Assembly (NCBI GenBank): GCA_024403355.1
Contig: JAKSRW010000010.1
Location: forward strand, 1-64,000
Reading direction: 5' to 3'
Length of the DNA stretch: 64,000 bases
Source: Lachnospiraceae bacterium
GTDB taxonomy: Bacteria > Bacillota > Clostridia > Lachnospirales > Lachnospiraceae
Below the pieces are notes generated by a model. That model was not told the DNA's origin, made no database searches, and worked only from the letters and a program-made list of their open reading frames with translations. This document shows, piece by piece, positions 10,795-51,658 of this stretch. How positions within the stretch are numbered: position 1 is the stretch's first letter; every line of letters starts with the position of its first letter. Made by a program: the position numbers and the translations under genes.

Positions 10795-10838
10795 AACTGA
10801 GAGCTTTAAGATTATTTTTGACCTTAAAGCTCTCAGTT
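10795..10838. terminator. Perfect 16-bp inverted repeat between convergent genes
   Basis: AACTGAGAGCTTTAAG (10795-10810) and its exact complement (10823-10838) flank a 12-nt loop. It lies between the convergent ends of the zinc-ribbon gene and the 10908 gene, so a bidirectional terminator is likely. The flanking T-runs are weak. The rest of 10839-10907 is AT-rich, with nothing else recognised. Confidence 0.6.
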
Positions 10839-10907
10839 CAAAATAATATAATTACAACTCGTTTGTTATATAACTCGTTTGCAATCTTATGTTTGAAGAA
10901 TTTATTA

Positions 10908-29932: not shown

Positions 29933-30997
29933 TTATTTATCATATCTTTCAAGAGTATCCCAGATTCCAAGCAGATACATGATTCCGAGCGCTCTGTCAT
30001 ATAAGCCGTAGCCTGGTCTGCACTTCTCACCCCAGATATGACGTCCGTGGTCAGGTCTGATATAGCCCTTAAAGCCATTATCATGATATGCCTTCATAAT
30101 CTCGAGCACACCTGTGTCACCGTCGCAGTCACGGTGTGATGCCTCGGTAAAATCGCCGTTAGGGAAATGCTTTACATTTCTTACGTGAGCGAAGGCAATT
30201 CTGTCACAATGCTTTCTTACAATATCTGCCACACAGTTTGCGGGATTAGAGCTCATTGAACCTGAACAGAGAGTAAGTGCATTGTAAGGGTCATCCACCA
30301 TCTTCAGGAATCTGTCAATAGAAGCCTCATCTACCAGAAGGCGGGGAAGTCCGAAGATATCCCAGGGCGGATCGTCCTGATGAATAGCAAGCTTGATGTC
30401 GCATTCGCGGCAGGTAGGCATAAGCTGCTCAAGGAAATATTTAAGGTTATCCCAAAGCTTCTCCTTGGTTACAGGCTTGTAGGCCTCAAAAAGCTCCTTA
30501 AGATGATCCATTCTCTCAGGCTCCCAGCCGGGCATTGTGTAGCCCTCGCACTTTTCAAGGATATAGTCAGCCATCTTTACGGGATCATCTATAATCTTGT
30601 CCTTCTCATAGAAAAGGGCTGTTGAACCGTCGGGAAGCGGATGGAAGAGATCTGTTCTCGTCCAGTCGAATACCGGCATAAAGTTGTAGCATACAACCTT
30701 AACTCCGAATTCCTTAAGATTTCTTAAGGTCTGTTTGTAATTTTCAATATATTTGTCTCTTGTGGGAAGGCCGATTTTGATGTCGTCGTGAACATTTACA
30801 GACTCTACTACGTCCATATTGAAGCCGTAGGCATGAAGCTGGTCTGCCACAATCTGAATTTCTTCCTTCTCCCAAACCTCTCCGGGCAGCTTGTTATGAA
30901 GCGCCCATACGATACCTTCTACACCCGGTATCTGGCGAATCTGTGACAGTGAAATGCTGTCATTTCCTTCACCGTACCATCTGAATGTCATCTGCAT
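29933..30997 (-). CDS. uxuA: Mannonate dehydratase
   Basis: About 354 residues, the usual UxuA length. Dehydrates D-mannonate to 2-keto-3-deoxygluconate. TIM-barrel features include MTFRWYGEGNDSISLSQIRQ at the start, CYNFMPVFDWTRTDL, LAIHQDDPPWDIFGLPR, LCSGSMSS, FAHVRNVK and RPDHGRHIWGE, in which the Cys/His/Asp residues bind manganese. The start at 30997 has AAAGG 12 nt upstream. The frame stays open further upstream to 31183, but that extension reads through the repeat element and is not credible. Operon with uxuB, 21 nt downstream. Confidence 0.95.
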   Translation of the reverse strand: MQMTFRWYGEGNDSISLSQIRQIPGVEGIVWALHNKLPGEVWEKEEIQIVADQLHAYGFNMDVVESVNVHDDIKIGLPTRDKYIENYKQTLRNLKEFGVKVVCYNFMPVFDWTRTDLFHPLPDGSTALFYEKDKIIDDPVKMADYILEKCEGYTMPGWEPERMDHLKELFEAYKPVTKEKLWDNLKYFLEQLMPTCRECDIKLAIHQDDPPWDIFGLPRLLVDEASIDRFLKMVDDPYNALTLCSGSMSSNPANCVADIVRKHCDRIAFAHVRNVKHFPNGDFTEASHRDCDGDTGVLEIMKAYHDNGFKGYIRPDHGRHIWGEKCRPGYGLYDRALGIMYLLGIWDTLERYDK

Positions 30998-31036
30998 AAT
31001 ATTGTTTGTCCTTTCAAAACATACTAATATAATAAT

Positions 31037-31284
31037 ACTTTTGTTCGTGTCTTGTGGCGATTGCGCGCCCCATTCACACCTCCACAAGCCCACTCTCAAA
31101 AGCGGTCGCAAATTCTCCGACCGGCTGTGCATATTATGCACAGCGGACTTTTGTTCGTGTCTTGTGCCTAATATTCGCCCCATTCACACCTCCACAAGCT
31201 CACTCTCAAAAGCGGTCGCAAGTTCTCCGACCGGCTGTGCATATATGCACAGCGGACTTTTGTTCGTGTCTTGTGGCGATTAGT
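31037..31284. repeat. Tandem 110-bp palindrome-bearing intergenic repeat
   Basis: Two near-identical units, 31037-31146 (110 bp) and 31147-31255 (109 bp), followed by a third truncated unit, 31256-31284. Each begins ACTTTTGTTCGTGTCTTGTG and contains two hairpins: CGGTCG...CGACCG, and next to it the palindrome GCTGTGCATA(T)TATGCACAGC. The units differ at a handful of positions, mostly just after the first 20 bases. It lies upstream of uxuA, within the first 50-300 nt before its start. Possibly a MITE/REP-like family spread through the genome; a transcribed structured leader is an alternative. Confidence 0.85.
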
Positions 31285-31301
31285 CATTTCATGCCTAATC
31301 G

Positions 31302-31359
31302 ATCCCCGAAAGTATCTGCCTTCTAAAGCAAGCTTTGAAGGCAGATACTTTTCGGGGAT
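31302..31359 (-). terminator. Long hairpin after yhaM
   Basis: ATCCCCGAAAGTATCTGCCTTC (31302-31323, split as ATCCCCGAAAG/TATCTGCCTTC) pairs with 31337-31359 with one bulged base. It lies 18 nt after the yhaM stop. A second small hairpin, CGATTAG (31278-31284) with CTAATCG (31295-31301), sits beside it on the edge of the repeat. No strong T-run is seen, so it may be a barrier or mRNA-stabilising hairpin as well as a terminator. Confidence 0.6.
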
Positions 31360-31376
31360 AGGCGTGTGAATGGTAA

Positions 31377-32315
31377 TCATGTTTTTCTCATGTTTGATTC
31401 GAAGAGTTTCTGGTAGCCGAGCCAGTCTGCTTTGTCGTCTGCTGTTTCAAGCAGCTCACGCATTGTTTCAAGCTTTGCATCCACGTTATCCGCGAAGTTT
31501 AATGCAATGGCTTCCGCTATTGCAGGCTTTTTGGGCGAACCGTACTCAAGCTCGCCGTGATGTGCGAGGATACAGTGGCGAAGCTCAGATGCAAGTACCT
31601 TCGGGAAATCCTCGATTTTTGCAATTCTCTCACCTAACATTTCGTAGCCCATCACAATGTGTCCGAGAAGATTACCGTCATCGGTATAATCATTCTGCGG
31701 AAGCTCAGAGAGCTCACGGATTTTTCCGATATCATGACACATTGCTGCGGCAATCAAAAGGTCCTTATTCAGGAAACGGTACTGCTCCGCGAACTTTACG
31801 CACAATGAGGTTACCGAAAGAGTATGCTCTAAAAGTCCCCCGACAAAGCCATGATGTACGGATTTTGCTGCGGAATGTGTCTTAAATTCCTTTATAAAAG
31901 CCTCATCCTCAAGGAAAAAGCTGTCTATAAGCTTCTTAATATGAGGCTCTGTAATCATCGCCGCATAGCTCATCAGCTTTTTATACATTTCCTCGATATT
32001 GAAACGGGTATAGGGCAGATAATCCGACGGGTCATACTCTCCCTCACGGCACTTTCTGATACGTCTGCACTTAAGCTGAAGAGTTCCCTGAAATACAGTT
32101 ACCTCACCTTCAACATAGATATAATCAAGTGCCTGAAATTCCTCGATTCCGCCACTGGTTATATCCCATACCTTTGCATCCAAAACACCGGTTTTATCCT
32201 GAAGAAGGATAGACATATAAGTCTTGCCGGTCTTGGCTACGAGATTCTGCACCTGCTTACACAGGTACACGTCGCGGGTAATGTCACCCTCGCGAAGCTC
32301 ACCAATATACTTCAT
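31377..32315 (-). CDS. yhaM: 3'-5' exoribonuclease YhaM family (OB fold plus HD domain)
   Basis: About 312 residues, as for Bacillus YhaM. An N-terminal OB-type nucleic-acid-binding domain (KTYMSILLQDKTGVLDAKVWD, VEGEVTVFQGTLQLKCRRIR) is followed by an HD phosphohydrolase domain with GGLLEHTLSV, AAAMCHDIGKI, DDGNLLGHIVMG and LRHCILAHHGELEYGSPK, the metal ligands. The start at 32315 has AAAGG 9 nt upstream. The reading frame extends 9 codons further but would include that ribosome binding site. A small hairpin, CCACCG/CGGTGG (32362-32379), precedes it. Confidence 0.93.
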   Translation of the reverse strand: MKYIGELREGDITRDVYLCKQVQNLVAKTGKTYMSILLQDKTGVLDAKVWDITSGGIEEFQALDYIYVEGEVTVFQGTLQLKCRRIRKCREGEYDPSDYLPYTRFNIEEMYKKLMSYAAMITEPHIKKLIDSFFLEDEAFIKEFKTHSAAKSVHHGFVGGLLEHTLSVTSLCVKFAEQYRFLNKDLLIAAAMCHDIGKIRELSELPQNDYTDDGNLLGHIVMGYEMLGERIAKIEDFPKVLASELRHCILAHHGELEYGSPKKPAIAEAIALNFADNVDAKLETMRELLETADDKADWLGYQKLFESNMRKT

Positions 32316-32403
32316 AAGCTTATGCCTTTCTAATAGTTTCACTCTTATTTATAGTCCGAACCCACCGCAATTCCGGTGGTTCAGCCATTTTATCAATCTT
32401 TTT

Positions 32404-50365: not shown

Positions 50366-51658
50366 TTAAACATTTAATACAAACAAATCAATAAATACCA
50401 TTGAATCCTCATCCTCAGACGCAGGCCTCTGAATATCTAATGCAAACTGGAATTTTTCAGCCTTTTTAACACCAAAGTATTCAAAGTTCGAGAGGTCTGT
50501 ATATATTCTTTCAATTGCTCTGTAACCGGGTCTCACTGTACGTGACCAGTCCATATCAAAAAGGATTCCGTTCAAAGCTGTATTTGACCAGGAAAAGGTC
50601 AGGCTGTCATCCGAAAAATTCTCCATAAAAAGGTCCATATAGAAGCCCTTTTCATCCGTTCCCTTTTCAAGAACAATAAAGGAACAGTCATCATTTCCCA
50701 TGCAGACATTTTCCCCGTTTCTGAAAACAAGCTCTCTTGCCGAAAGTTCTTCTTCCGAAAGACCTGTAGGATAAATACAAAGCTCCTTACAGTCCGTCAG
50801 CTCCGATTCATCAGCCGTTTCCGAAGTGTCTGTCTCTGTCAAAGCAGGCATAAGCTTAACCTGCATTTCCAGCTTTTCCGCCGCATCTGTGCCCATTCCG
50901 GTAAAATCCACATTTTCAAGAAGAAAGCTTCCAAAATCAAAGGAAGCTGCTGCCCTGTCGATTTTTATATTCTGATAAAACTCATAGTTGTTTACTGCTA
51001 TTTCGTCTATCTGAACCATAATCCAGGAATCAGTCCTGTTCGATAAAAAATATCCGATTTCAATTTCATTTTTGCCGGGGCGTGCCTCTATATTATTAAT
51101 AATAAAAGATATTTCATCATTGTCAATAACGACTGTACCGTCAACCTCCGGCTCCTGAGAACTTTCAAAGCTGTCTCCATCGTTTTCGGAAGCATCCATT
51201 CCGCTTCCTGTGCTCTCAGTTCCTGCGGCTTCCGTTCCTGCACTCTCCGTTCCGTTTTCTGCGGCTTCCGCACCGCTTCCTGCACTCTCCGTTCCGCTTC
51301 CTGTGGCTTCCGCATCCGTTCCGACAGTCGCACTACCCTGATTTTCTGCTCCGGTTTCCGCATTTTCGCTTCCCACTGCAGAACCTGCACTTCCCGCAGC
51401 ATCGTTTCCTACCGTCATATCCACCGCAGTCGAAGAAAAGTCATACTTACCGTTTATAAGCTTCTCTATGTCACTTCTGTCATCTGCCGTATTATCAGGC
51501 TCCGGGCTAACAGCCGGCTCCTCATGCTTTTCCTCCGAATGAGGTGTCGCGGTCTGCAAGAGCGACGAATGCTTTTGTTCATCCTCCTTTTTACCGCACG
51601 AAGCAAGCCCCAGACACAAGAGCATAATCAAAACTGCCAGTGACCATCTGTTTCTCAT
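50366..51658 (-). CDS. Lipoprotein of unknown function with low-complexity linker
   Basis: 430 residues. Lipoprotein signal with lipobox LASC, cysteine C21. A Ser/Gly/Ala/Thr/Glu-rich low-complexity linker (about 78-155) follows, made of near-repeats such as TESAGSG/TESAGTE. The C-terminal part (about 175-430) looks like a beta-rich globular domain (DISFIINNIEARPGKNEIEI-type strands, FYMDLFMENFSDDSLTFSW) that I do not recognise. In Bacillus-type genomes, this place between rqcP and divIC holds yabP/yabQ. The gene starts with a 4-nt overlap with rqcP, so translation is coupled. Confidence 0.82.
   Translation of the reverse strand: MRNRWSLAVLIMLLCLGLASCGKKEDEQKHSSLLQTATPHSEEKHEEPAVSPEPDNTADDRSDIEKLINGKYDFSSTAVDMTVGNDAAGSAGSAVGSENAETGAENQGSATVGTDAEATGSGTESAGSGAEAAENGTESAGTEAAGTESTGSGMDASENDGDSFESSQEPEVDGTVVIDNDEISFIINNIEARPGKNEIEIGYFLSNRTDSWIMVQIDEIAVNNYEFYQNIKIDRAAASFDFGSFLLENVDFTGMGTDAAEKLEMQVKLMPALTETDTSETADESELTDCKELCIYPTGLSEEELSARELVFRNGENVCMGNDDCSFIVLEKGTDEKGFYMDLFMENFSDDSLTFSWSNTALNGILFDMDWSRTVRPGYRAIERIYTDLSNFEYFGVKKAEKFQFALDIQRPASEDEDSMVFIDLFVLNV

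Follow-up and report, generated by a model that had tools for sequence, protein, structure and literature searches.

The repeat array upstream of uxuA

The window (the whole 64,000-nucleotide stretch of DNA analysed here) carries uxuA and, upstream of it on the same strand, a yhaM-like gene. Between the two lie ~340 bases dense in nested palindromes. They contain two copies of a 110-bp unit and a 26-bp piece, which together with the adjoining palindromes make up the following features.

29933–31000, minus strand: uxuA, D-mannonate dehydratase (PF03786, E 2.4e-154; NCBIfam mannonate dehydratase), downstream of the array
31037–31062, plus strand: third copy, truncated to the end of the unit (matches 31256–31281, 100% over 26 nt, 26/26)
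31057–31069: joint at which the truncated copy meets copy A, with a sequence unlike that of the A/B joint
31080–31167, minus strand: copy A, a three-way-junction palindrome lacking arms 2 and 3 (RNA folds, z −4.1 and −5.3; alignment)
31103–31123 and 31213–31233: CGGTCG/CGACCG hairpin, perfect in both copies
31124–31144 and 31234–31253: GCTGTGCATA/TATGCACAGC hairpin, perfect in both copies
31167–31179: joint between copy A and copy B, read from the sequence
31180–31373: complete nested cloverleaf, 194 nt (terminal inverted repeat and DNA folds)
31180–31189 and 31364–31373: terminal inverted repeat CCATTCACAC / GTGTGAATGG, 10/10 matching
31190–31276, minus strand: arm 1, which is copy B, a three-way-junction palindrome (RNA folds, z −5.1 on the minus and −5.5 on the plus strand; A/B alignment)
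31277–31301: arm 2, short hairpin CGATTAG..CTAATCG (inverted repeat and folds)
31302–31359: arm 3, long near-perfect hairpin of 58 nt (opposite-strand self-match, 90% over 58 nt)
31377–32342, minus strand: yhaM-like OB-fold and HD-domain gene (PF01966 over cut-off), upstream of the array

The stretches 31037–31134 and 31147–31244 are 92% identical over 98 nt at a spacing of 110, with the third piece in register, and the 20-mer ACTTTTGTTCGTGTCTTGTG occurs three times against 0.02 expected in the whole window. This bears out the tandem repeat that the first-pass annotation had placed here, as well as its two hairpins, whose stems are perfect in both copies; alignment of copy A with copy B likewise upheld its statement that the differences spare both inner stems. 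The repeat is real, but the frame first given to the unit cuts through the element, the branched palindromes being 31080–31167 and 31190–31276. The array had also been said to abut the uxuA start; it is near, but begins 37 bp upstream of the ATG (31000) and makes no contact with it. The two joints differ from each other, one resembling the left side of arm 2 and the other its right side.

On the minus strand, GGAGG stands five bases 5′ of an ATG in both copies (31073 and 31183). From the ATG at 31183 a 416-aa ORF runs in frame with uxuA, and that at 31073 opens a 19-codon ORF whose TGA overlaps the AAAGGA preceding uxuA. They could suggest a leader peptide, but the GGAGG–ATG pairs form part of the inverted repeat and probably arise as its side effect. 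Elsewhere in the window, a short tandem repeat of ~21-bp units (TTCCTGCACTCTCCGTTCCGC) was noted at 51205–51318, and a strong hairpin rich in A and T (ACTGAGAGCTTTAA..TTAAAGCTCTCAGT), which is likely to be an ordinary terminator, at 10797–10842.

Folding of the array

Each copy forms a three-way junction of ~87 nt, with an outer stem CACAAG.CAC.CAAAAG/CTTTTG.GTG.CTTGTG and two inner arms, namely the 20–21-nt palindrome (GCTGTGCATA..) and the CGGTCG..CGACCG hairpin. The closed cloverleaf of which copy B is the first arm extends beyond 31284, the end first described, and was missed at first reading. In this 194-nt cloverleaf 80–81% of bases are paired (dG −65/−69 kcal/mol). Folded as single-stranded DNA, 31030–31390 gave z values of −14.5 (minus strand) and −12.9 (plus strand), neither of which was reached by any of 100 shuffles, and the three lowest energies among 658 tiled segments of the same length fell on the array, the next best being −31.4 kcal/mol.

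Stable folding on the uxuA strand, 37 bp from the start of the gene, is what would be seen if two tandem three-way-junction RNAs served as a structured leader tuning the transcription of uxuA or the stability of its mRNA. The RNA of 31000–31284 folds with z −5.3 on the minus strand, and the three A/B differences inside the element all lie in unpaired columns. The plus strand, however, folds equally well (z −6.2), the fourth difference disrupts the outermost base pair in copy A, and a terminator-like site is absent on the uxuA strand. Rfam returned no match near the gathering score at 30900–31500, with eukaryotic and archaeal families far below their cut-offs. A covariance model of the two copies (R1) gave no convincing match at the 22 uxuA loci of the genus (L008–L029), so that conservation upstream of the gene was not found there. 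We therefore regard a leader as unlikely. The placing of three of four differences in unpaired columns (26 unpaired of 88) was considered as a signal of selection for structure and set aside, a binomial estimate by hand of ~0.08 being too weak. To a tandem three-way-junction uxuA leader, acting as RNA or as extruded DNA, built on a lineage-specific cloverleaf outside any described family, we give very little credence. Were a leader reading true, uronate use would be under a control that is absent from the relatives.

The hairpins might alternatively block transcription, as terminator-like DNA kept or tolerated as punctuation. Both copies of the GCTGTGCATA palindrome are terminator-like on the plus strand, the region having 3 such sites against 0.4 expected, and a near-identical palindrome followed by T6 stands after a tRNA-like gene in another genome (G152). 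Against this, the T-runs are short (CTTTTG) and lie on the plus strand, both flanking genes being on the minus strand, which makes punctuation improbable. No T-run follows the arm 3 hairpin on either strand. Promoter-like sites in the region (3 against 0.9 expected) were given no weight as evidence.

The junction in related genomes

UxuA is present in 22 of the 24 genus genomes, and in several related species the yhaM-like gene and uxuA stand side by side. Compared with the NCBIfam YhaM model, the yhaM-like gene scored 205.9 bits (E 7.7e-61), below the cut-off of 460. Neither flanking gene is out of the ordinary. Ten loci with a presumed upstream yhaM-like gene were passed through a junction script, which recognised the gene end in nine and missed that of L012 by its pattern. 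The gap between the genes is 379 bp in the window and 12, 21 and 21 bp in L008, L011 and L014, where the site is empty; in other relatives it is wider, at 121 (L016), 125 (L010), 167 (L009), 338 (L013) and 476 bp (L015). The yhaM-like product ends in ESNMRKT in the window and in ESNMRKT plus four or five residues at the other eight loci, the compact-junction relatives having the C-terminus ESNMRKTTYKED or ESNMRKTVYKED. Relative to these, the gene in the window is without its last codons.

The junctions of L009, L010 and L016 hold a different repeat, ending in GATGAGGTG, and the window junction had no 12-mers in common with the other widened junctions. When the six widened junctions were folded, that of the window gave z −13.4 and the others −5.6, −4.4, −3.9, −0.8 and −0.4. 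The repeat at L009:607–668 is hairpin-rich, of the form ..GCTTCCCC..GATGAGGTG, and we know of no name for it. Of 24 genus genomes, 12 carry it, at 3 to 39 matches per genome, which shows that the search method detects dispersed repeats when they are present; it was not found in the genome of the window. Since the copy at L009 belongs to this family, the junction takes in palindromic repeats, and since three widened junctions hold the GATGAGGTG repeat it seems to accept inserts repeatedly. The yhaM-like/uxuA junction may thus be an insertion hot spot.

Copy number and search for relatives

For the genome of the window itself, 71 contigs (94.7% complete) were searched. The array was found at one locus by sequence search of all contigs, other matches amounting to nothing beyond 16-base chance pieces. 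The central 16-mer of the palindrome had no further perfect site in this genome and three places with 2 mismatches. A collapsed multi-copy element should leave pieces at contig ends, and none was seen in this genome at E up to 1.

The wider genome sets (family, class and relatives) overlap and hold one genome per species. No array was found by a sequence sweep in the other genus genomes (0/23) or by BLAST in the other family genomes (0/396; 397 including its own). R1 recovered its own locus only from the 397 family genomes; having been built from two near-identical copies, it is insensitive to diverged members and so a weak test for them. Over the 24 genus genomes it gave one weak match (G001, E 0.25), at L036:1501–1720, where a run of hairpins with a recurring GCGATAAACGAAAGCCGT motif is seen.

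A second copy was found neither among 390 class genomes (391 including its own), which yielded matches of 20–34 bases in eight (E 0.002–0.009), nor among 394 relatives (395 including its own), where a single match of 25 bases turned up (G152, E 2.2e-4). At that place (L170:1430–1530) a tRNA-like gene is followed by a terminator-like hairpin that almost equals the 21-nt palindrome of the array but has no cloverleaf around it. The eight class matches (L157–L164) reached at best 13.6 bits with R1. All nine are taken as probable chance or terminator likeness, the G152 match alone having been inspected directly.

Pattern searches of public collections were carried out as well. The exact 20-mer was not found in genome_contigs, and six patterns gave no hit in viral_contigs; plasmids and phages yielded none either, and these collections may omit the window's own record. 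Among plasmids, UxuA itself had distant matches only, the best at 63.7%. A looser two-stem pattern occurred in at least 118 stretches, those listed coming mostly from high-GC taxa. The 118 loci listed scored at most 22.5 bits with R1 (L043, E 0.00099), against 112.9–114.3 for the two copies, and the L043 match is treated as chance, having been pre-selected by the pattern. A literature search for the cloverleaf array found no paper, which does not prove absence.

The array is thus unique among the genomes searched. The first-pass annotation, which had proposed counting the unit across the genome and its relatives, had named uniqueness beforehand as speaking against mobility; with a single locus and sweeps that gave no convincing second copy, a mobile family is unsupported.

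Mobility marks

Comparison by eye with the empty sites showed no target duplication, the true ends of the insertion being uncertain. As regards ends in common with an autonomous transposon, the search of the window's genome gave the 16-base chance pieces only. A partner transposase was sought among Y1 transposases and none was found for the array. One Y1/IS200-like transposase gene is present in the genome (L171, C6:70743–71066; a 210-aa open frame and the sole Y1 match), and its 3.3-kb locus has no 11-mers in common with the array. The MITE- or REP-like character first suggested holds for form (a terminal inverted repeat, nested hairpins, an intergenic site, absence from the junction of relatives), but no mobile family can be demonstrated.

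Because a second copy and a target duplication are both missing, an origin on the spot stays alive, in which the palindromes were born in place by hairpin-templated mutation and replication slippage with no mobile element involved. A single locus in its own genome, no related copy in the sweeps, no duplication visible by eye and partial tandem copies with differing joints are all as this account would have them. It has difficulty with three arms enclosed by a terminal inverted repeat, which independent slippage would hardly produce, and with the compact junction of three relatives, which offers nothing to grow from. We hold local birth to be somewhat unlikely, though ahead of an RNA leader.

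Origin of the array

The array looks like a lone insertion and not like a visible mobile-repeat family, since no second copy was found in the genomes searched. Our preferred reading, to which we assign a probability of about 0.5, is that a short nested-palindrome element of MITE-like anatomy, with no coding content, entered the yhaM-like/uxuA junction as a solitary insertion specific to this lineage. Such an insertion explains the sudden presence of the array, its inverted ends and the lost codons. The origin and function of the array are unproven.

Under the insertion reading, the intact element would be the 194-nt cloverleaf at 31180–31373, probably arriving as one element. On its insertion, a junction of ~12–21 bp, as seen in some relatives, would have grown to 379 bp, and the yhaM-like gene would have lost its final codons. 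The 26-bp piece and copy A would be partial tandem copies, with joints in the region of arm 2. Slippage at inverted repeats and the instability of hairpins are well established, and the partial copies may have been made by hairpin-prone slippage or deletion. Once transcribed, the hairpins would likely break the link between uxuA and the yhaM-like gene, so that uxuA would depend on a promoter of its own.

An elaborate nested palindrome can, on this evidence, occupy a single site without a detectable family. Being compact or otherwise filled in relatives, the junction is usable for studying the arrival of palindromic elements and gene coupling. The practical weight is modest, the effects on coupling being predicted ones.

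Comparison with known systems

REPs and BIMEs (PMC2817692) resemble the array in being palindromic, tandem and extragenic; according to the abstract of that paper, a genome usually holds more than 100 REPs. The array differs in occupying one locus and in having direct, not alternating, units; neither a high copy number of 20–40-bp palindromes nor a RAYT flanked by the same palindrome was found for it. The bacterial stem-loop repeat families, as covered in part of PMC2267715, are likewise intergenic and stem-loop-rich, some with an adjacent stem-loop pair, but are defined by repetition within a genome, whereas the array is single-locus.

The ..GCTTCCCC..GATGAGGTG.. repeat of the genus is also hairpin-rich and fills this junction in L009, L010 and L016; it differs in having no 12-mers in common with the array and in reaching several to many copies per genome.

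With MITEs, going by the portion of PMC10969869 consulted, the array shares short length, absence of coding, a terminal inverted repeat, strong secondary structure, an intergenic position and a site that is empty in relatives. It departs from them in being single-locus, with no second copy found in the genome or in relatives, no target duplication seen and no partner transposase found. Instead of one long hairpin, the array forms a nested three-arm cloverleaf.
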